Positions 47,415-57,790 of a DNA stretch of 64,000 nt are shown piece after piece. Location of the stretch: positions 1 through 64,000 of the forward strand of contig JAFLCC010000001.1 of the NCBI GenBank assembly GCA_017302835.1, given 5' to 3'. The position numbers and the translations under genes were made by a program. The notes below the pieces were generated by a model. The model saw only the letters and a program-made list of their open reading frames with translations. It was not told where the DNA came from and did no database searches. This stretch comes from Deltaproteobacteria bacterium. GTDB taxonomy: Bacteria > Bdellovibrionota > Bdellovibrionia > Bdellovibrionales > Bdellovibrionaceae. Position 1 is the stretch's first letter, and the number at the start of each line of letters is the position of its first letter.

Positions 47415-47828
47415 CTATTTTTCTTTGGAGGAAGTGCTGCCGCCATCCGTACCGCCAGATTTCGAAGATGGCGCTCCCTTTCCTTTGTCTTTTTCAATAC
47501 GAGGATTAGAGTTGTCACTCAATTTTGTATCAGCCAAAACGCAATTAGGGCAAATCCCTTTAACCTTCTCATTTAAACCAGCTTCAGTTCCAGCTTCATC
47601 TAATCTCATGGCTCTTCTATAATCCTTATCTATATCTTTTAGGATATCAACTTGATCTTTTAGATCAAACTTTTTTACACCACTCATATTAATAGGTTCA
47701 GCTGTTGGTGTTGGAGTTGTCTCAGGTTGTGGAGGCCCACCCGCAGATCCCTGAGAACCTGCAGCAGGTTCTTCAGCGTGGGTGAGGGTATAAAAACAAA
47801 ATGTTATCACTAAAAGTATTTTAATCAT
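47415..47828 (-). CDS. small secreted protein with low-complexity tail
   Basis: A signal peptide (MIKILLVITFCFYTLTHA) is followed by a Pro/Thr/Gly-rich stretch and a short helical middle (VDILKDIDKDYRRAMRLDEAG). A CPNC motif (GICPNCVLADTKL) and a Gly/Ser/Lys-rich end follow. The CPNC pair could form a disulfide or metal site. It is the last gene of the strand that carries the RHS protein and the Tad locus, 8 nt after the RHS stop. Confidence 0.65.
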   Translation of the reverse strand: MIKILLVITFCFYTLTHAEEPAAGSQGSAGGPPQPETTPTPTAEPINMSGVKKFDLKDQVDILKDIDKDYRRAMRLDEAGTEAGLNEKVKGICPNCVLADTKLSDNSNPRIEKDKGKGAPSSKSGGTDGGSTSSKEK

Positions 47829-47836
47829 CCCTACTC

Positions 47837-49498
47837 CTATAAAAATAATTCTTGTGTTGCGGGAGCTATAATGTCTAACAAATTGTTAAAGGTACTCGCC
47901 ACCTGCATGGCGACGCTGGGACCTTCTTTGCTATCCACCTTATTAATATCTCCGTTCGGTTTATAAGTTACTTTAATACTGCCCAGACCTGGTCGAGTGA
48001 CTGCCACGGGTTTATTATACTTTTCTTCATATTGAAGCTTAACTACTTTTTTTGCCTGGTCCTTAATTTGAGTGATCCTGCCCTTGTTATCATAGGATAA
48101 CTCAATTTTCTGCCCTTCGGAGTTTTCAGCAAAATTTAAATTGCCTTTTGTATCATATTGAAACTTTGTAAATTTTGTGGAAACTTTTTTCCCTTTTTCA
48201 TTTAAATTTTCGATAGTCACTTTGACGGGCTTTTTAATTGTCGCTCCGTACTCGAATATCAGTTTGTTACGATCCGTCGTTTTAGACCTTACCATCCCGT
48301 CGGTCGTGTACTCATAGGTCATTTTATTTCCATTTTTTCTAATGGAAATGGGTCTCCCAAAAACTTCGTGATAACTGATATCCATTTCATCATCATTTTC
48401 TTTGGATAACACTCGCGAAAGAATGAACTCACCATCAGGTTTTTGTTTATGCCAAAATTCATATCGACTTTGAGCCATTGTTTGTTTTCCACATACCTTT
48501 TTAACAGAAGACCAAAAATGACCCTTAGGATCTTTTTTATCTACCTCATAATTATATGTTTCTGTACATTTATCTCTATCGACAAACCCAATAACCCAAT
48601 CATTATTTTGATTATATTTGATCTGCACAGTTGAACCATCGGTAAAAGTAATTTTAGTCACATTATGTAGATCATCATACTGATATTTAGTAGCAAATTT
48701 CTTTGAATCGAGAGAATAGGTTAAATCATCTGTATTTTGATATTGATATTCTGCCTTCAAAGAATTAGGTCCCAAGACTTGATGTACTTTTTTATTAGCT
48801 GGATAGTATTTAAAAGTTAATTTTCTTGAACTCGAATCAGAAACTTCTTTTAAAAGACCTAATTTATCATATTCGAGCTTTAACATATTGCTATTCTTAT
48901 CATACATATGAGTCAGCTGTCCTTGGGGATTAAATCTTTGTTTGGATCCATCGGGAAGAGTTCGTTCATAATAAGTTGATTTGAATACAATGCTATCTAC
49001 CTCTTTGCCATTTGCTAAAAATTTACTTCCATCACTTAATTTACTAACCATGCCGTATTTTTTTGCTTCTGCAGCCCTGGTTTCATCGTACTCCAGAAGT
49101 TCTTCTCTTCTCTTTTTGTAAAACTCTTCGTTTCTTCCTGAAGATTTTTCAGCTTTCATTTTTCCAATAACGAAATCGATGGTTTTTTCTACATCCTGTT
49201 TGCTTATTTCTCTTTGTGAAAAAACAAGCTCTGAACCCGCACCGCACTCTTTAACTTTCAAATTATTTTCACTGGTAATTTCCAATTTCGTTTCAAAGTT
49301 CGTACACCATCCAAAACCAAAAATTCCATTGAACAAAGTTCGACTATTGTAAGTTCTTTCTAATTTAAGATCATATCCTATTCCATCAAGGTGAAAATCC
49401 ACCCATGTATTCGAATAATTGGCATTTTTCATATCCACAATGGAAAAGGCAGGAAGAGAAATAGTCAAAACGAGTAACGGCAACAACATCCATTTCAT
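47837..49498 (-). CDS. secreted RHS/YD-repeat protein
   Basis: Signal peptide MKWMLLPLLVLTISLPAFS is followed by a DUF6531-like start (YDLKLERTYNSRTLFNGIFGFGWCTNFE). At least a dozen YD repeats fill the rest, such as LEYDKLGLLKEVSD, YQYDDLHNVTKITF, FQYDTKGNLNFAEN and LSYDNKGRITQIKD. It is short for an RHS protein (553 residues) and shows no C-terminal toxin or RHS core boundary motif. It lies 22 nt downstream of the Tad inner-membrane gene on the same strand, so it may be co-transcribed with the pilus locus. Confidence 0.85.
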   Translation of the reverse strand: MKWMLLPLLVLTISLPAFSIVDMKNANYSNTWVDFHLDGIGYDLKLERTYNSRTLFNGIFGFGWCTNFETKLEITSENNLKVKECGAGSELVFSQREISKQDVEKTIDFVIGKMKAEKSSGRNEEFYKKRREELLEYDETRAAEAKKYGMVSKLSDGSKFLANGKEVDSIVFKSTYYERTLPDGSKQRFNPQGQLTHMYDKNSNMLKLEYDKLGLLKEVSDSSSRKLTFKYYPANKKVHQVLGPNSLKAEYQYQNTDDLTYSLDSKKFATKYQYDDLHNVTKITFTDGSTVQIKYNQNNDWVIGFVDRDKCTETYNYEVDKKDPKGHFWSSVKKVCGKQTMAQSRYEFWHKQKPDGEFILSRVLSKENDDEMDISYHEVFGRPISIRKNGNKMTYEYTTDGMVRSKTTDRNKLIFEYGATIKKPVKVTIENLNEKGKKVSTKFTKFQYDTKGNLNFAENSEGQKIELSYDNKGRITQIKDQAKKVVKLQYEEKYNKPVAVTRPGLGSIKVTYKPNGDINKVDSKEGPSVAMQVASTFNNLLDIIAPATQELFL

Positions 49499-49520: not shown

Positions 49521-50396
49521 TCATACCTTGATTGTAACAATTTTTTTAATCCAAATTCCACCAATAACTTGCAAGACTAGCATTATAAAAATAAAAATAT
49601 AGCCCATTGTCGTAGTGTACATTGGTCTGATAAAAGCTGGATCCATAAACAAAAATACAATAAAAATTACTAGAGGTACCAACATGACAATAATTCCCTG
49701 CATGACGCCCTTTGAAGTTATCGCGTCAATTTTTTTCTCAATTTTTTGTCTTTCCCTAATAACATAGACAATGGTCTCGAAGGTTTCGGCTAAATTGCCG
49801 CCCGTTTCCTTTAAAATATTAATTGAAGTCACAAACATTTGCACATCGGGTCTGGGTATTCTCTGTCCCAGTTTTGTTAGAGCTTCCTCAAAACTAGATC
49901 CTAATTGAGTTTCTGACACGATCGTTTGAAACTCCTGACTGACAGGATTTCCCATAATTTCGATAACTCTTTGCATGGATTGAATGGGGTTTGATCCTGT
50001 TTTAATTCCATTTGCCATGATGGTAAGAGCATCAACCATTTGAGTGACAAATCGTGAACATCTTTTTTCATAATTAGCCTTAACCAAGAGCAATGGAGCA
50101 TTCCATCCTGCTATTCCAATGGATATTCCAAATAACAATCCAGACATAATATCAGGCCATAATAAAAAGAAAAAAACAGCACCCAGCCCGAAACTCATTC
50201 CATATAAAAGCCAAGTTACTTTTTTAGGCTCAACAGAAACGCCCATAAGTGAATAATACTTTAGTATAAGGTCCCTGGTACTAGTGGATTTTGTACTAAA
50301 ATATTTTGAAAAAATACCCGTAAAGTTATAAACAGCAATCGCAATGGCGACCGTAACAACCGGAATAAAAATAAAAGGTTTAAACAAAAATTCCAT
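49521..50396 (-). CDS. tadB: Tad secretion inner-membrane protein (TadB/TadC type, T2SF domain)
   Basis: This protein has membrane helices at the N-terminus, at about 65-105 and at the C-terminus, around a type II secretion F domain (about 110-230: RFVTQMVDALTIMANGIKTGSN, EFQTIVSETQLGSSFEEALTKLGQRI). It is the platform protein of a Flp pilus machine. Standard Tad loci have two such genes, tadB and tadC; only this one is seen. It follows the fused ATPase gene by 9 nt. The TadB assignment is by length and by position after TadA. Confidence 0.85.
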   Translation of the reverse strand: MEFLFKPFIFIPVVTVAIAIAVYNFTGIFSKYFSTKSTSTRDLILKYYSLMGVSVEPKKVTWLLYGMSFGLGAVFFFLLWPDIMSGLLFGISIGIAGWNAPLLLVKANYEKRCSRFVTQMVDALTIMANGIKTGSNPIQSMQRVIEIMGNPVSQEFQTIVSETQLGSSFEEALTKLGQRIPRPDVQMFVTSINILKETGGNLAETFETIVYVIRERQKIEKKIDAITSKGVMQGIIVMLVPLVIFIVFLFMDPAFIRPMYTTTMGYIFIFIMLVLQVIGGIWIKKIVTIKV

Positions 50397-50405
50397 TTTA
50401 GTCCT

Positions 50406-52634
50406 TTACCCACTTTTCTTTACAGTGGGGTTCGCGTTCAACGGAGCGTTCAAAGGTACATTTGGCTTGATCGCCTCAGCCAAAAATAATTCTTTAGGGA
50501 CAATGACATTTTTTGCAGCTAACTTTTGAATGATTTTAGGAACATACCCTGTGGGTTGAAAATTTCCCAGTATTTTTCTTTTTGCATCATAACCCGATTC
50601 TTTAAAAATAAAAATTGGAGCTAACGTTACCGCGTCTCCCTGAATTCCATCGACTTCCGTTATAGAAAGAATTTTTCTCGTACCATCACTCAGCCTTGAA
50701 ATCTGCACAATAATGTGAACAGCACTTGAAATTTGTTCTCTGATAGCTCGAGCCGGCAAATCCATTCCAGCCATCATACAAAGAGTCTCCAAGCGAGAGA
50801 TACACTCCTTGGCGCTGTTTGCATGAGTGGTTGTCATTGAACCATCGTGACCTGTATTCATGGCTTGAAGCATATCAAGGGCTGCGCCATCACGACATTC
50901 ACCCACAACGATTCTATCAGGGCGCATCCGTAAAGCATTTTTTATCAAATCTCTGATATGAATGGCATTAGTCCCTTCCATCGAGGTAGGTCGGGTTTCG
51001 AGCCTGACCACGTGCTCTTGCTGCAATTGCAGCTCCGCCGCATCTTCTACAGTAACTATTCTTTCTGTAGAAGGAATAAATGAGGACATCATATTCAGCA
51101 ATGTTGTTTTTCCTGAACCTGTTCCTCCAGAAATCACAATATTCATTCCATTTTCTACGCATATTCTTAAAAAATCGATCATGTTTTTTGTCATGGAACC
51201 ATATTCAATATATTTTTCTGGAGTCACTCCCCCTTTTTTGAATTTTCTGATGGTCACAGAGGGACCATCAATAGAACAAGGTTCAATAATGGCGTTCACT
51301 CGAGAGCCATCTTTTAATCTTGCATCCACCATTGGCGACGCGCTATTAATTTGTCGACCTAAGGGAGTGACGATTCTTTCAATAATTCTCCTTAAGTGAT
51401 CATTCGAAGTAAACTGTACATCTTTTAGCAAAGTTAATTTTCCACTTTTTTCCACAAAAATTCTTTTTGCTCCATTAATCATGATTTCTGTGACATCTTT
51501 ATCTGCTAATAAGTCTTCTAAGGGGCCTAACCCTAGGGCTTCTTCCAAAACCTCTTTAATTAAAATTTGTCTTTTTTCTCTGGAAATTTCTGGAGCTTCT
51601 TTATCAACAATCTGAGTGATCTCTCTTCTAGTGCGCTCGCGAAGTTCATTTTGTTTCCCTTCATCTTGTCCACTTTCCTTCATCATTTTCGTTAACTCAG
51701 GAGACCGTAACAATTCTGAATGAACTCTTATTCTCAACTGCACCTGTGGATCTAATGAGTTTTGACCCCCATTAACCGTTGCTCCTGCTCCCGACAAATC
51801 GATCGAGTTTGCAGCGCTCACAGCGGGGCTCTTAGGTTTTGATAAGGACTTAAGCCTTTGCAAGGTTCCACCAGTAAGTCTACGAACCACATCATAGTAA
51901 CTGCTAGTAAGAGCCGATTTAGGTTGTGAAATCACAAAAGGCGTGTTTTTTTGAATCGACGAAAGAGTTAAAATGTCATCTTGAGGAATCAGTCCCATCG
52001 GAGGCATTCGCAAGGAATTACTAATTTCCTGAGGGGCAATTCCTGAACTCGAAACTTTGTTAATAATCAACTGGAACATGTCCCTAGGAAAGGTGGCTGA
52101 AAGCAAATCGTTTATCAAACGTTGTGTTTGGGCTACCACTAAAATCTCGGGTGTTGTCACAATAAAAGCAGCCGTAGCCTCAAGTAAAAACGCATTTTGT
52201 AATGGTCCGATGTCATTACCCAAATCAACCACGATGAATTTAAATTGGCGGCTAAAAAAATCAAGTTGTCTCATCAAGGACTCTGGATTGACATCTAATT
52301 TTTCTTCAGGCCCTCGAACCGCCCCAAGATAAGCCAAACCAGAAGAGTGAACAGTAACTAATTGATTTAAAGGCTGAGAGGCTAATCCCATATTTAAATT
52401 GATAATTTCTTTTAAAGTTTTATTTGGCCTTATTCCCAGAAGAACATTTTGATCACCGATTGTTTTTGCATCTCCATCAATCAATAATACTTGGGTTCTT
52501 AACTCGGTCATTAAGGCCAAAGAAAAGTTGGCAGCAAATAGACTTTTGCCAACTCCACCTTTTCCTCCGATAACACCAATCAATGTACAATTTGGATTTA
52601 TTGCCAATGGACCCCCGTCATCACTACTGACCAT
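50406..52634 (-). CDS. TadZ/CpaE-TadA/CpaF fusion ATPase of the Tad pilus
   Basis: Two Tad ATPases are fused in one protein of 742 residues. The N-terminal MinD/ParA-like domain (about 20-265) has a deviant Walker A in GGKGGVGKS (26-34 in the longer reading), and lipid- or pole-directed positioning is the known role of TadZ/CpaE. The C-terminal CpaF motor (about 300-745) has NGAKRIFVEKSGKL, Walker A GGTGSGKTT (506-514), Walker B in RPDRIVVGECRDGAALDML and the His box GSMTTTHANSA. The linker (about 265-310) is Ser/Ala/Gly-rich. The ATG at 52634 is taken; a TTG at 52643 would add MPI. Confidence 0.9.
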   Translation of the reverse strand: MVSSDDGGPLAINPNCTLIGVIGGKGGVGKSLFAANFSLALMTELRTQVLLIDGDAKTIGDQNVLLGIRPNKTLKEIINLNMGLASQPLNQLVTVHSSGLAYLGAVRGPEEKLDVNPESLMRQLDFFSRQFKFIVVDLGNDIGPLQNAFLLEATAAFIVTTPEILVVAQTQRLINDLLSATFPRDMFQLIINKVSSSGIAPQEISNSLRMPPMGLIPQDDILTLSSIQKNTPFVISQPKSALTSSYYDVVRRLTGGTLQRLKSLSKPKSPAVSAANSIDLSGAGATVNGGQNSLDPQVQLRIRVHSELLRSPELTKMMKESGQDEGKQNELRERTRREITQIVDKEAPEISREKRQILIKEVLEEALGLGPLEDLLADKDVTEIMINGAKRIFVEKSGKLTLLKDVQFTSNDHLRRIIERIVTPLGRQINSASPMVDARLKDGSRVNAIIEPCSIDGPSVTIRKFKKGGVTPEKYIEYGSMTKNMIDFLRICVENGMNIVISGGTGSGKTTLLNMMSSFIPSTERIVTVEDAAELQLQQEHVVRLETRPTSMEGTNAIHIRDLIKNALRMRPDRIVVGECRDGAALDMLQAMNTGHDGSMTTTHANSAKECISRLETLCMMAGMDLPARAIREQISSAVHIIVQISRLSDGTRKILSITEVDGIQGDAVTLAPIFIFKESGYDAKRKILGNFQPTGYVPKIIQKLAAKNVIVPKELFLAEAIKPNVPLNAPLNANPTVKKSG

Positions 52635-52740
52635 TATCGGCAAGAAATTGTAATTTAATGAGACAAGTTTTATTAAACTAGATTTTCGTCAGTATGCGTT
52701 CATTTTTGGCCTGTTTGTTGCTTCACTTTATAAGCTATAT

Positions 52741-53463
52741 ATGAAAACTTTTTGCCATCTTTTTACTAAATGTATTCTCATAATTACTTTATTAACTCAA
52801 TCCGCATTGAGTTCGGGAAAAAAATGTAAAGATGTTTATGAACTGTATAATAATACAACATTTACCGTTTATGACAAAAGCTTTCAATCCTTCAATGGAA
52901 AATTGAATTATAAACTTTTGGTCAGAAATGAGGTATTCGATATTTCTCACTCTGATGTTCCCCTGTTCAAGAATTCCCTCCTGTTAAATGTTACCATCAA
53001 TGGACATGCCCAGCTCATCTATAATGGAAAAAAAATTTCCTCTTACGGCGACCCCGGTATAAGTATGAAAAGCTCTTTTAGTGAAGAGCCTTTATTGACC
53101 GAAGGAATTTATTTTGTATTTAGTAAGTCAAGTAAGAACCTTGATGAGATTTTTTCAAAACTCGGCAATGAAACTAAAGGTAACTATGCTTTTACTTGCG
53201 CTTCAAATACTTGTAGCGCTTTCAATTCACTAAATATCGGAGAAAAAAAGCTGCCCATCAGTATTACTCCACTTTCCCTGGCCAACTACTTATTAAAAGA
53301 AAAAGCCCTTGGGAATAATAGCTTTGAAGTTGTCACTTATTTAACTGAAATTGATTCCATTTTGACATTCGTCAAATACAACCAATTTAGATATAAAATG
53401 TTCCCAGTTTTGCTTTCTATTTGGTCCACTTTATTAGGCATCACATTATTAAAAATTTTCTAA
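52741..53463 (+). CDS. hypothetical secreted protein, opposite strand within the Tad locus
   Basis: A signal peptide (about 1-24) leads to a domain with several cysteines (KKCKDVYEL, FTCASNTCSAF) and a possible C-terminal membrane helix (LLSIWSTLLGITLLKIF). The family is not recognised. It lies on the plus strand between the fused ATPase and the secretin, so it breaks the Tad operon. No Shine-Dalgarno sequence is clear at this ATG. Confidence 0.5.
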   Translation: MKTFCHLFTKCILIITLLTQSALSSGKKCKDVYELYNNTTFTVYDKSFQSFNGKLNYKLLVRNEVFDISHSDVPLFKNSLLLNVTINGHAQLIYNGKKISSYGDPGISMKSSFSEEPLLTEGIYFVFSKSSKNLDEIFSKLGNETKGNYAFTCASNTCSAFNSLNIGEKKLPISITPLSLANYLLKEKALGNNSFEVVTYLTEIDSILTFVKYNQFRYKMFPVLLSIWSTLLGITLLKIF

Positions 53464-53495: not shown

Positions 53496-55091
53496 TTAAT
53501 AAGGCATCTTAAATTTAGCTTTTACTTTCTCGCTGTCAGTGCTTGCAGAAGTTAAAATTACGGGCGTTACAAAAACCACGAATTGATTTTGGTTTCTGGA
53601 ATTTCCTTTAGCAGCCAAGGCGTTAAACAAAGTATTGGATGCGGGATCCCTGTTATAGTTTGTGTCCGTAGAATTTTTAATTAGTCCACCAACGGCAGCA
53701 CTTTGCCTATCTCTGACAGTAATCACTGTTTGTAAGGCATTCTTTGATACCACGGGTTTGCCATCAACAACTCCAATTTTTTGGCTCACTTGAAATTCCA
53801 TTTTCATCTCGACACTGCCTGAACGGTCTTGACTGATTGTCGGTGTAATCACGGCCGAAAGTCCAGTGGGAGTAAATGCAGTCCCTTGATTCCCTGTTTG
53901 ACCGATCACTGTATAGGGCTCATCTATAGTTTGTGATATAGTACCCTTTTCACCATCTTTAACCATAAAAGAAGTGCTTTCTAAAACCCTAGCGTGACCA
54001 TGGGTTTTAGCCGAATTGAGCTTCGGCAATAAATTACTAATCACGGCCGTCAAAGAAGTCACAATGCCGCCACCTTGATCTCCTGTTTTGACCTCAACAC
54101 CCGAAGTCTGATCGCTGATTCGAGGTGCCCATTCAAATCGAAATGATTTGGAATAATCCTTTTTTAATTCCACATAGTGAATATTTAATTTCACGATTTT
54201 TTTAGGTGCAGGAGGTGCTCCTTCTTTGATGGTAATCATATTTATAATTCCATCATTAGCAGGTTTGGGACATTTTATAGAACCATCCGAACAAGATGGA
54301 TCAACAAATACAGGCGGAACATAAACCTTAGCAATAATCTCTGCTTTGATCTTTTCGTCTTCACTGCCTACTTGGCCTTGTAAAATTATTTTTTCGTTAG
54401 CCGCTCGACATTCAATTTCTGGATTGTTAATGTCTCTCATAATAAATTCACAAATTTTCTTATATGCCATTGGGTTCACCGTAACGATACTATCCACCTT
54501 ATCACCAAATTGTCGCAAAACACTTTTGATTCGCATTAAATCTTTAGGGGTTAAGACTTGCCCATCTATGACAACTTTATTATTTATAATTTTAGTGTTG
54601 ATTCCATCAATCTCAGCCAACATTCCTTTAAGTTCAATGACGACTTTATCAAGACTATTTTTTCTGACATTGATTCTATATTCAGCCACTTTTTTATTGT
54701 TCTTTGAATCGTAAATAACAAGCGTACCAAACCCTTCCTTTAAGGGTTTAAATCTAAAAATATTTAATTTTTTGTTGAATTCAATTTTTACGAACCCTTT
54801 ATAACTGCCATCAATTTTGATTTTTTTAGGTAAAGGGGGGAGCTTCTTGTCTTCTTCAATTCCATAAGTTAAATTGATATATTCTGCTTGTTTGTAGGAA
54901 ATAAATTGCTCGGACCCTTCGGTTGTTAGAACTGAATCATCAGAAGTTTCTGCTCCTAATTTTTGATCCTCAGTTTGACCAGAACTGTCATCAGCTAAGT
55001 TTGAAGTGTCCTCTTGGGCCAATGCTGCTTGAAAAGGTGCTTGAATTGAAATCACCAAATATAAAAACAAAAATAATTTCATCGCCTTCAT
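53496..55091 (-). CDS. cpaC: Tad pilus secretin (RcpA/CpaC type)
   Basis: AAGGGG precedes the ATG by 5 nt. The signal peptide (MKAMKLFLFLYLVISIQA) precedes a pilus-formation N-terminal domain (about 60-150: INLTYGIEEDKKLPPLPKKI) and a BON-like region (ITVNPMAY). The C-terminal secretin domain (about 290-525) has HARVLESTSFMVKDGEKGTI and QFVVFVTPVIL. Secretins form the outer-membrane pore through which the pilus passes. It lies 15 nt after cpaB, a standard order. Confidence 0.92.
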   Translation of the reverse strand: MKAMKLFLFLYLVISIQAPFQAALAQEDTSNLADDSSGQTEDQKLGAETSDDSVLTTEGSEQFISYKQAEYINLTYGIEEDKKLPPLPKKIKIDGSYKGFVKIEFNKKLNIFRFKPLKEGFGTLVIYDSKNNKKVAEYRINVRKNSLDKVVIELKGMLAEIDGINTKIINNKVVIDGQVLTPKDLMRIKSVLRQFGDKVDSIVTVNPMAYKKICEFIMRDINNPEIECRAANEKIILQGQVGSEDEKIKAEIIAKVYVPPVFVDPSCSDGSIKCPKPANDGIINMITIKEGAPPAPKKIVKLNIHYVELKKDYSKSFRFEWAPRISDQTSGVEVKTGDQGGGIVTSLTAVISNLLPKLNSAKTHGHARVLESTSFMVKDGEKGTISQTIDEPYTVIGQTGNQGTAFTPTGLSAVITPTISQDRSGSVEMKMEFQVSQKIGVVDGKPVVSKNALQTVITVRDRQSAAVGGLIKNSTDTNYNRDPASNTLFNALAAKGNSRNQNQFVVFVTPVILTSASTDSEKVKAKFKMPY

Positions 55092-55106: not shown

Positions 55107-55982
55107 TCATCGTCCATTGAAGTTTGAATTGTTAGGTCTAGCAGTTGGAATAACTCCACCGGCCATTGGATTTGCTGATGGCTCGGTGCTAGACATATTG
55201 CCTTCGGTGGCACGAGCTAAAATTGAATCAGAAGTGGAACTGGGTAACCTTGATTTAATAATCCCATCAGTAGGATTTCTTAATGTTACAAATATATTTC
55301 CAGGCGACGTGGATAAAATATACACCAAATCCTGAGCTTCTTTGATTTCAGCCTCTACGGTTATCGTACTATATTTTGTATCACCAGTGAGAGACGTTTG
55401 AATGGCATTTTTTCCAGTTGAATCATATTCAATTAGACGAGGGATATTGTTTTGAACTGAGACACCCGTTGCGAGAACGGGGACATTTTGCATCAATAAA
55501 AAGCTTTCTCTTCGCAAGTTGGCGCCTTTGCCAATATCCAAAGCCACAAATAAATCAATTCGATCTCCAGGTCGAATCAATTTCGAAACGCCCCTGATCT
55601 CATCGATAGGTATGGAAATCGCCCTCTTGGATGGTGCTACCTGCAAAGCAATTCCAGTATCTGCGCCCGGTGAATATAAATGATTTTTTAAAATGGGTTG
55701 CCCTTTTTTGATTGGAACTGCAGCAACATTTCCAATTATTTCCTGAATATTAGAAAAGTTTCCATCTGGGACGTAATCATTGGGATAGGCTTTAGTTTCT
55801 AGCATCGAATCATAAATCGTCGTCATTTCAGAAATATCTTCTTTAGCAACAACGACAACTTTTTTTTGACCAAGCTGCAGATTGATCGCTTTTCTCTGCT
55901 CTTGTGCATAGCTGTAAATCATAAACGCAGCAAAGACACCAGCAATAATTGATATCCACAAGTTTTTCGATTCATTCGCCAT
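55107..55982 (-). CDS. cpaB: Tad pilus assembly protein CpaB/RcpC (SAF domain)
   Basis: One N-terminal membrane helix (about 8-26) precedes a SAF domain (about 43-110, VVVAKEDISEMTTIYDSML). The RcpC/CpaB core follows (RAISIPIDEIRGVSKLIRPGDRIDLFVALD). GAGGAG lies about 7 nt before the ATG. It is a periplasmic partner of the secretin in Flp pilus assembly. It precedes cpaC, and a short hairpin lies upstream between it and the TadE-like gene. Confidence 0.92.
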   Translation of the reverse strand: MANESKNLWISIIAGVFAAFMIYSYAQEQRKAINLQLGQKKVVVVAKEDISEMTTIYDSMLETKAYPNDYVPDGNFSNIQEIIGNVAAVPIKKGQPILKNHLYSPGADTGIALQVAPSKRAISIPIDEIRGVSKLIRPGDRIDLFVALDIGKGANLRRESFLLMQNVPVLATGVSVQNNIPRLIEYDSTGKNAIQTSLTGDTKYSTITVEAEIKEAQDLVYILSTSPGNIFVTLRNPTDGIIKSRLPSSTSDSILARATEGNMSSTEPSANPMAGGVIPTARPNNSNFNGR

Positions 55983-56030: not shown

Positions 56031-56065
56031 GACTTAGGGCCCGTTATGGCGCCGGTCCTAAAGTC
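56031..56065 (-). other. intercistronic hairpin between pseudopilin genes and cpaB
   Basis: Arms of about 11 pairs with small bulges (GAC, TTAGG, CCG / CGG, CCTAA, GTC) overlap the stop of the upstream TadE-like gene. The stem is GC-rich in an AT-rich locus but has no T-run after it. It may set different mRNA levels for pilins and assembly proteins. Confidence 0.35.
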
Positions 56066-56600
56066 ACTTCTTTGTTGGAGTACAGGTAGAATTAAGACAA
56101 ATCCCATAAATAGGTCTTATCCAAACTGGAAAAGCTTGGTATTGATCTTTTTCTTCAAGCAAAGGTTTTCCATCATCTTTGATTTTAAAAACATCCTGAT
56201 TGTGCAATTTAGAATTTGTATCTTTTTCAGGAGTGGAACTTAGCTGATCTCCGTCAGAGTTAGTTCCTCCGAACGAGGAAACGAAAGAAATAGGTCTTGC
56301 GGTAGCTATCCAGTTTTCGTTATTTCCACTCACTCGATTCTCTGACACCACCCCATGAAATCTATTGCCGAATAATCGAAACTTAGAAATTTTATCCGTC
56401 CCATTATTTTCCCTCCAAAAGAATTCTAGATTTGATCTGAACCTATAGGTTTCAAAGGCATAATTTCTAGCGGCTATATTTTTTAAAATTCCCGTATGTA
56501 TGACACCAAAAAATCCAAGACCAAAATTAAATAAAATCATCACCACAGCAAAAATAGCAACGACTTCTAAGGCAGCCATTCCCGATTTATTCTTTAACAT
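56064..56600 (-). CDS. TadE/TadF-like minor pseudopilin
   Basis: The N-terminus MLKNKSGMAALEVVAIFAVVMILFNFG is a prepilin-like start: Gly before the hydrophobic helix, with Glu at position +5 counted from Met8. The remainder is a soluble globular domain with C-terminal cysteines (GICLNSTC). It overlaps the upstream pseudopilin gene by 7 nt. The TadE/F label rests on this N-terminus and on the position in the Tad locus. Confidence 0.7.
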   Translation of the reverse strand: MLKNKSGMAALEVVAIFAVVMILFNFGLGFFGVIHTGILKNIAARNYAFETYRFRSNLEFFWRENNGTDKISKFRLFGNRFHGVVSENRVSGNNENWIATARPISFVSSFGGTNSDGDQLSSTPEKDTNSKLHNQDVFKIKDDGKPLLEEKDQYQAFPVWIRPIYGICLNSTCTPTKK

Positions 56601-57223
56601 CCGTTATCCTCCATCGGAAGATACTTACTATTGCTTCCTGGTGACTTATCGTTGTCCCTGTACCGCAAATCTAACTCGATAATAGCTTTGTGCCGGACCC
56701 CCACCGACATAAATTTTTGACATTCATCACTTGTAGGGTTTCGCAACATAAAGCCCGTCACTTTAGAGGTAAAAGATTGATCTGTAGGATTGGTACTTCC
56801 TAAAAAACCCAATTTCATATTGAAAAGATTTGTTTTAAATAGTAATCGTACGCCTGTGGCAATCAACTTAGTGCCATCAGGTTCAGAATCATATTCATTA
56901 AAAATTTCTCCCTTATAACCACTTCGAAATGCTGGTTTGTCAAAACCTAATTCAAACCAGCCCTGTTTAAATAGTTTTCCTAATCCAGGTTTATTCATTA
57001 TTTGAGTCATTTTTTTTCTTGCTAAAGACTCCTGTTCAGAAATATTGATATGTCCAGCCGAATAGGTTCTTCCTACAGAGTAAGCAATGTACTGAGCCAC
57101 TTCAATGCTGGACAAGGTAAATGCCACAACAAAAAACAAGACGGCTAATGAAAAAGAAATAATAATGGATAATATGAAATCAATAGTCAAAAATCCCGTA
57201 TTATTTGCAATCCTTTTTTTCAT
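56594..57223 (-). CDS. TadF-like minor pseudopilin
   Basis: The N-terminus NNTGFLTIDFILSIIISFSLAVLFFVVAF has a Gly followed after five residues by an acidic residue (Asp in place of Glu) and a long hydrophobic helix. The soluble domain (about 40-209) has two cysteines near the C-terminus. It lies downstream of repeat copy D and overlaps the next TadE-like gene. No sequence motif of known TadF function is visible beyond the N-terminus. Confidence 0.65.
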   Translation of the reverse strand: MKKRIANNTGFLTIDFILSIIISFSLAVLFFVVAFTLSSIEVAQYIAYSVGRTYSAGHINISEQESLARKKMTQIMNKPGLGKLFKQGWFELGFDKPAFRSGYKGEIFNEYDSEPDGTKLIATGVRLLFKTNLFNMKLGFLGSTNPTDQSFTSKVTGFMLRNPTSDECQKFMSVGVRHKAIIELDLRYRDNDKSPGSNSKYLPMEDNGC

Positions 57224-57298: not shown

Positions 57299-57562
57299 TT
57301 ACTTTCTTTGCATAACGGTAGATACGGCAGAAGGATTATGGGGGTGTCTTTTTCTCGTTGCATTTGGTAACCCCCAAACACCATTTTCTATCATTCCAGA
57401 AACCTTTTCCCAAGGTTTTACGAGTATGTTTTCCATAATTTGACGTTCCTTAAAGGATTTTATAAGTGCCAAAAATAGCATTAAACTTATGACTAACAAC
57501 AGAACCGCCTCAATGACAAATTGTCCGCGCTGATTTAGTTTTGCTAATACTGCTCCCATCAA
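57299..57562 (-). CDS. TadE-like pseudopilin, small
   Basis: This is an 87-residue protein with a pilin-like N-terminus NQRGQFVIEAVLLLVISLMLFLALI: Gly, then Glu at +5 counted from Gln. A short soluble tail follows. It is in the Flp locus directly after the leaderless pilin-like gene. A start at the second Met (GAVLAKLNQRG) is equally possible. Copy D of the repeat follows its stop. Confidence 0.65.
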   Translation of the reverse strand: MMGAVLAKLNQRGQFVIEAVLLLVISLMLFLALIKSFKERQIMENILVKPWEKVSGMIENGVWGLPNATRKRHPHNPSAVSTVMQRK

Positions 57563-57598: not shown

Positions 57599-57790
57599 TT
57601 ACCTTGCCATCTCCCAAGCATGATCACTTCCATCTTGGGTTTTGAATCCATGACCAGTGACAAGATGCTTTTCAACTCTCGCCGCTAACACCGGACTGTA
57701 ATCCCTAAAGGCATCCCTTGGCGCCAAAAAAAAGAACTTCAGCCCAATCATAAAAAAACATACAAGTAACAACACATATTCAATGGTCAT
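57599..57790 (-). CDS. small pilin-like protein without a leader peptide
   Basis: The protein starts MTIEYVLLLVCFFMIGLKFFF, which copies the mature Flp N-terminus (EYVLLL) seen in the neighbouring Flp pilin but has no leader or processing Gly. An in-frame stop lies three codons upstream of the ATG, so no leader can be read. The 63-residue protein ends in a charged tail. Its ATG comes one nucleotide after the flp stop, suggesting coupling. Confidence 0.55.
   Translation of the reverse strand: MTIEYVLLLVCFFMIGLKFFFLAPRDAFRDYSPVLAARVEKHLVTGHGFKTQDGSDHAWEMAR

Follow-up and report, generated by a model that had tools for sequence, protein, structure and literature searches.

A Tad pilus motor fused to a receiver-less TadZ-type ATPase in Bdellovibrionota

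If a TadZ/CpaE-type ATPase and a TadA/CpaF-type motor are read in one frame, then either two genes have been joined by error, or the Tad pilus, a gripping pilus, is served by a motor that carries a second ATPase as part of the same protein. This question is raised by the Tad locus of a stretch of 64,000 nucleotides from a Bdellovibrionaceae genome, the whole of which is referred to here as the window. According to the original prediction, the motifs GGKGGVGKS and GGTGSGKTT lie in a single 742-residue frame joined by a Ser/Ala/Gly-rich linker, and both motifs are indeed present in the same frame, with SLSKPKSPAVSAANSIDLSGAGATVNGGQNSL as the linker. The frame lies on the minus strand, which the prediction did not give, and is continuously open from its earliest start codon, TTG 52643 (745 aa), to the stop at 50406; the 742 residues are obtained from the ATG at 52634. 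A comparison of the upstream DNA points to a later start, as nearly all close relatives have an ATG, GTG or TTG that aligns with TTG 52607-52605 and follows a GGAGG-type box. Because both the aligned start codon and the Shine-Dalgarno sequence are conserved in relatives, TTG 52607 is probably the start and the fusion protein is probably 733 aa long. The gene and its parts are as follows.

50406-52607, minus strand: tadZ-tadA fusion gene, most likely coding sequence (TTG start, 733 aa; open frame, with start and Shine-Dalgarno conserved in relatives)
52612-52616, minus strand: Shine-Dalgarno-like GGGGG ahead of TTG 52607 (relatives have a GGAGG-type box there)
51849-52598, minus strand: TadZ/MinD-type ATPase module, model residues 7-256 (AlphaFold2, fold matches, tree with TadZ)
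52542-52568, minus strand: deviant Walker A GGKGGVGKS, with signature and catalytic lysines present in the sequence
51753-51848, minus strand: disordered Ser/Ala/Gly-rich linker, model residues 257-288, approximately 32 residues (pLDDT below 50 for 264-287)
51597-51752, minus strand: CpaF NTD1 three-helix bundle, model residues 289-340 (aligns from CpaF residue 80; three helices in the model)
50472-51596, minus strand: CpaF NTD2 and C-terminal motor ATPase domain, model residues 341-715 (matches to CpaF 8rjf/9e24)
51102-51128, minus strand: motor Walker A GGTGSGKTT in the sequence (Lys invariant in 94/94)

A sequencing or assembly artefact that joins two genes has a practically negligible probability, and nothing was found that speaks for it. 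All 60 relatives searched match the fusion protein, 58 of the 60 over its full length with the halves in one frame or nearly so, and several of the full-length homologues come from single-contig genomes. Across the phylum, both halves occur in one match in at least 148 of 192 Bdellovibrionota genomes, a lower bound counted from the listed matches. Since full-length homologues are present in well over a hundred independent genomes, single-contig assemblies among them, chance, frameshift and misassembly are ruled out, and the tadZ-tadA fusion is real. Seventeen genomes with weak or short best matches were re-examined, and these proved to hold mostly genes cut at contig ends, together with a few paralogues only and one family in which the fusion has a shortened N domain. 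Neither a separate adjacent tadZ/tadA pair nor an intact stop between the two genes was found within Bdellovibrionota, including the 17 re-examined genomes. Within the phylum the fusion is the rule and is in no way special to this genome; it also recurs in other phyla. Many Bdellovibrio-type bacteria are predatory. In the family with the shortened N domain (f13; loci L157, L158, L160 and L162) the fusion is kept and the P-loop is altered, for instance to YGAKESGKT.

As predicted, tadZ and tadA are usually separate in the Tad loci of the other sampled phyla. Among 80 named loci, TadZ is followed by TadA as two adjacent genes in Chloroflexota, Bacillota, Actinomycetota, Planctomycetota, most Acidobacteriota and others, and fused frames are found in six loci of Omnitrophota, one of Acidobacteriota, one of an unclassified bacterium and two of Eremiobacterota. 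In a larger sample of 117 Omnitrophota genomes, approximately 36 have the fusion and approximately 15 have the genes separate, as counted among the matches listed. In a published study, Velamenicoccia (Omnitrophota) have TadB and TadC proteins that cluster with their counterparts from Bdellovibrionales and from other Omnitrophota (PMC10066038).

On the origin of the fusion, a careful TadA tree has a branch (support 95/96) that divides the motors with a separate TadZ from the FHA-linked motors and the fused ones of Bdellovibrionota and Omnitrophota. When the fused motors of Bdellovibrionota, Omnitrophota and Acidobacteriota-type were forced into one clade, the constraint was not rejected (p 0.476), and the same was true when Eremiobacterota were added (p 0.564); quick trees set the Eremiobacterota fused proteins apart. 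A single origin is therefore not rejected by the constraint tests, and equally not demonstrated.

The N half had been called TadZ/CpaE, and this identity stood as to kinship but not as to completeness. In the 745-aa frame, residues 23-226 match Pfam CbiA (MinD/ParA-type, 7.8e-9), the N half matches NCBIfam MinD (1.6e-22), and residues 7-256 align to ParA/MinD-type ATPases, with fold matches (3ea0, MinD and FleN) at Z 26-30, those of MinD and FleN being 26-28. The best profile and structure match is 3ea0, a ParA-family ATPase of Chlorobium tepidum (1.1e-41, Z 29.5), which has a single ATPase domain in its solved chain, unlike the fusion. MinD and FlhG score well in single-sequence searches and the Walker A of the N half is standard, as would suit a fresh recruitment from MinD or FlhG and not from TadZ, yet such a recruitment is very unlikely in view of the tree. 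When a quick tree was built, the N halves of the Bdellovibrionota and Omnitrophota fusions grouped with separate TadZ (SH-aLRT 96), and the same branch excluded the ParA, FlhG/MinD-like and Mrp-like proteins that these genomes encode. By its sequence relationships, then, the N half is placed in the TadZ clade and outside MinD, FlhG and ParA proper. A profile search with the N half reaches TadZ 3fkq at 5.5e-10; this structure was not among the 50 fold matches listed, which is no evidence against TadZ identity.

CpaE/TadZ proteins (Caulobacter CpaE; Eubacterium rectale TadZ 3fkq) have the same MinD-fold Tad ATPase and belong to the same clade by tree, but they are separate proteins with an N-terminal receiver-like domain. 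Approximately 150 residues precede the ATPase in separate TadZ, and Pfam matches Response_reg/TadZ_N there in locus L080. In contrast, the receiver-like domain is absent from the window protein, the frame of which begins 10-20 residues before the P-loop, and the N half corresponds to part of a TadZ only. No second stand-alone TadZ was found in the genome of the window, where the next match to the TadZ profile scores 5.5e-16 versus 1.6e-101 for the fusion. The helix that closes the TadZ module has an unremarkable hydrophobic moment of 0.47, where other segments of the protein reach 0.50-0.66, and no membrane-targeting role is claimed for it.

The identity of the C half as CpaF/TadA was borne out. 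The best NCBIfam match of the frame is the TadA family (1.9e-92), residues 370-655 of the 745-aa frame match Pfam T2SSE (5.2e-64), and the solved CpaF structures (8rjf/9e24) are matched at 2.3e-113 and Z 36-38 (8rjf, Z 37.6). CpaF scores 383 bits versus 137 for FlaI and 107 for VirB11, and PilT is also far below. The half thus combines a T2SSE domain with its box residues, CpaF as nearest relative, the three-helix NTD1 and Tad-locus neighbours. In comparison to Caulobacter crescentus CpaF/TadA (8rjf, 8rkd and 9e24), the three-helix bundle, NTD2, motor domain and operon partners are the same, and 414-419 residues align at 42-44% identity. Pfam found no FHA domain in the window protein, which therefore falls outside CpaF class III (FHA-CpaF, including KilF).

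Conservation within the fusion is uneven. Motor residues K503, E528, E573 and H598 are invariant in 94/94 fused sequences. In the TadZ module, the signature Lys is present in 88/94 and the catalytic Lys in 86/94 of the aligned fused sequences, and these two together with two key Asp are each kept in 86-92 of 94. The linker is 12-49 aa long in relatives and its conservation is low (0.29). From the conserved Lys and Asp of the TadZ module versus the variable linker, both ATPases seem to be maintained by selection. All 57 fused rows from Bdellovibrionota retain the catalytic Walker lysine, as do 15 of 16 from Omnitrophota; among the separate TadZ sampled this residue is present in 18/44 overall and in 0/7 from Omnitrophota.

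An AlphaFold2 monomer, built from an alignment of 18 fused proteins, has two well-folded parts and a disordered stretch (mean pLDDT 78, and mostly 85-93 in the TadZ module); its pTM is 0.46, and the placement of the halves relative to each other is not fixed by the model. Residues 289-715 align to CpaF 80-503, that is, from the start of the Caulobacter three-helix bundle. The first 79 residues of Caulobacter CpaF are disordered (PMC11300603), whereas the window protein has a folded TadZ-type ATPase and linker there. Because the CpaF alignment begins at residue 80, the start of NTD1, the TadZ module takes the place of the disordered NTD0 (residues 1-79) of Caulobacter CpaF; at this point other CpaFs have either such a tail or an FHA domain.

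What would such a protein do? A ratio of 1:1, as was predicted, follows from the covalent link between TadZ and TadA halves. In Caulobacter, a ring of six CpaE dimers has been modelled about the CpaF hexamer, with the receiver domains probably joining the dimers, and CpaE shifts against the CpaF base when a pilus is present; this 12:6 arrangement consists of predicted models fitted into a tomographic average (PMC13170226). Removal of the CpaF N-terminal tail led to less retraction in one study (PMC11300603) and lowered extension and retraction alike in another (PMC12019362). For the window protein, the most likely function would be that of a Tad motor carrying its own TadZ-type ATPase switch at 6:6. 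Six motor subunits would form the usual hexamer, placing six TadZ modules around the ring; these would bind ATP and pair between neighbouring subunits, giving three pairs per ring, with the flexible tether standing in for receiver-domain contacts. The paired modules would recruit and hold the motor at the assembly site and influence the choice of the ring between pilus extension and retraction, and hydrolysis would let the pairs go. We infer hexamerisation, pairing, localisation, motor control and the coupling of the two ATPase cycles, and we consider the explanation as a whole, a Tad-pilus motor with a built-in receiver-less TadZ ATPase whose modules recruit, hold and influence it, moderately probable. 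In places, the full ATPase cycle of the module may be dispensable, because family f13 has a shortened and altered N domain; the cycle may thus not be essential everywhere.

It is possible, if somewhat doubtful, that the fusion is a convenience of expression and stoichiometry only, with the module acting like a separate TadZ and the two ATPases uncoupled. A passive tether would fit a disordered linker that varies from 12 to 49 aa at conservation 0.29, and joining would be a small step given that, in other phyla where the two genes are separate, tadZ and tadA lie side by side in this order. However, the fusion has no receiver domain, the part through which CpaE dimers are joined in the Caulobacter model (PMC13170226), and with 6:6 versus the 12:6 modelled in Caulobacter the machine is not buildable in the same way.

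That the fusion ties polar localisation to the hexamer, as the original prediction had it, is plausible. The FHA-linked motor KilF of Myxococcus accumulates where prey is contacted, not at a particular place in the cell (PMC8460266), and polar placement is therefore not to be assumed. KilF and other FHA-TadA (class III; PMC12019362, PMC8460266) likewise have an N-terminal folded module, and share a side of the TadA tree with the fused motors, but the module is FHA and not an ATPase. FHA domains were found in loci L061, L064, L070 and L099, and no TadZ-like ORF was found within the FHA-TadA loci examined. These loci bear on a further reading, in which the N module positions nothing and regulates the motor in place of the disordered CpaF tail, as FHA may. 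The module sits exactly at the NTD0 position, FHA-linked TadA loci are without a TadZ-like ORF nearby, and the fused and FHA-linked motors share one side of the 95/96 branch. Regulation without positioning is nevertheless unlikely, given that the module branches with TadZ, the known members of which localise the machine, and keeps both Walker lysines.

Returning to the built-in TadZ switch, a stronger form of it is tentative and rather improbable. Here the two ATPase cycles would be mechanically coupled in each subunit, ATP-driven pairing would break the ring into three pairs, and the pairing of six modules would set both docking and extension or retraction; the protein would then be a fourth CpaF architecture, an adaptation spread among predatory Bdellovibrionota and those Omnitrophota that are considered predatory or parasitic.

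A survey of 292 CpaF orthologs from major phyla distinguished three architectures (no tail, tail, and FHA with tail), and the TadZ-fused form is missing from them (PMC12019362). The fusion adds a class to this published scheme. No paper describing a TadZ-TadA fusion was found in the open literature, and the fusion is apparently undescribed. Domain databases will display both of its domains. The action of TadZ/CpaE on the motor, and the ratio between the two, are matters of ongoing research. Their natural joining in one chain is an argument for TadZ and motor sitting together in the working machine; it also sets the ratio to 1:1 and makes clear that a receiver domain is dispensable.

The neighbouring genes place the fusion within a Tad locus, as follows.

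47837-49498, minus strand: RHS-repeat protein, positional counterpart of Bd0109 (Pfam RHS_repeat 3.1e-15; order as in PMC3818213; phylum-wide)
49521-50396, minus strand: TadB (T2SSF platform protein), directly downstream of the fusion (Pfam T2SSF 1.2e-17)
53496-55091, minus strand: secretin RcpA/CpaC (Pfam Secretin 1.7e-16)
55107-55982, minus strand: RcpC/CpaB (NCBIfam pilus_cpaB 5.7e-41)
56064-56600, minus strand: putative minor pilin (N-terminal hydrophobic segment, syntenic in relatives; no Pfam match)
56594-57223, minus strand: putative minor pilin (N-terminal hydrophobic segment, syntenic in relatives; no Pfam match)
57299-57562, minus strand: putative pilin-like protein with GQFVIEA and a hydrophobic stretch (sequence, synteny)
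57599-57790, minus strand: flp2-like trimmed pilin beginning MTIEY (sequence; trimmed Flp motif of BALOs, PMC5430801)
57792-58007, minus strand: Flp major pilin with GQGMVEY and a hydrophobic stretch (sequence)

The order cpaB, secretin, fusion, TadB and RHS protein is kept across Bdellovibrionota. From gene order, and from the fusion being general in the family, Bd0111 of B. bacteriovorus is identified as the positional counterpart of the window fusion. Bd0111 has been named TadA and detected by mass spectrometry in attack phase, and the pilins flp1 and flp2 of the same TAD locus are needed for predation (PMC5430801). As the fusion belongs to a Tad locus whose pilins are required for predation there, it is testable in B. 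bacteriovorus.

Several other genes were observed in and beyond the locus. Between the secretin gene and the fusion, on the opposite strand (52741-53463, plus), is a 240-aa ORF with a signal-like N terminus and no match in the relatives compared, in which the gap is mostly short; it seems to have been inserted into the Tad operon. Beside the RHS protein, the gene at 47415-47828 (minus strand) is the counterpart of the hit-locus gene bd0108 by position alone, and no sequence match to it was found in locus L113. Elsewhere in the genome are two more CpaF-like ATPases (L111 8692-9798, minus strand, 368 aa; L112 7161-8252, plus strand, 363 aa), neither of which has a TadZ-like ORF nearby; stand-alone copies of this kind are also found repeatedly in relatives. 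Outside the locus, at G000:C3:33062-33451, is a second T2SSF protein with the size of a TadC, and bd0470 tadC of B. bacteriovorus is likewise outside its locus (PMC3818213).

Directly upstream of the fusion gene is a candidate promoter element.

52634-52641, minus strand: GCCGATAA, sigma-28 (FliA) -10-like box (CCGATA conserved in relatives)

The sequence [ACGT]CCGATA, which resembles the sigma-28 -10 box GCCGATAA, is present in many relatives, mostly 25-35 nt before the start, and CCGATA occurs at most 70 nt from the start in 23/53 loci versus 0.012 expected per locus. Because no sigma-28 -35 box was found at standard spacing in the window, where TAAA is 12 nt from the GCCGATAA box, the element can be proposed only as a candidate promoter within the Tad operon. 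In B. bacteriovorus, FliA dependence of the TAD operon has been reported (PMC5430801). If the GCCGATAA box is a promoter, then ATG 52634 would fall upstream of the transcript.
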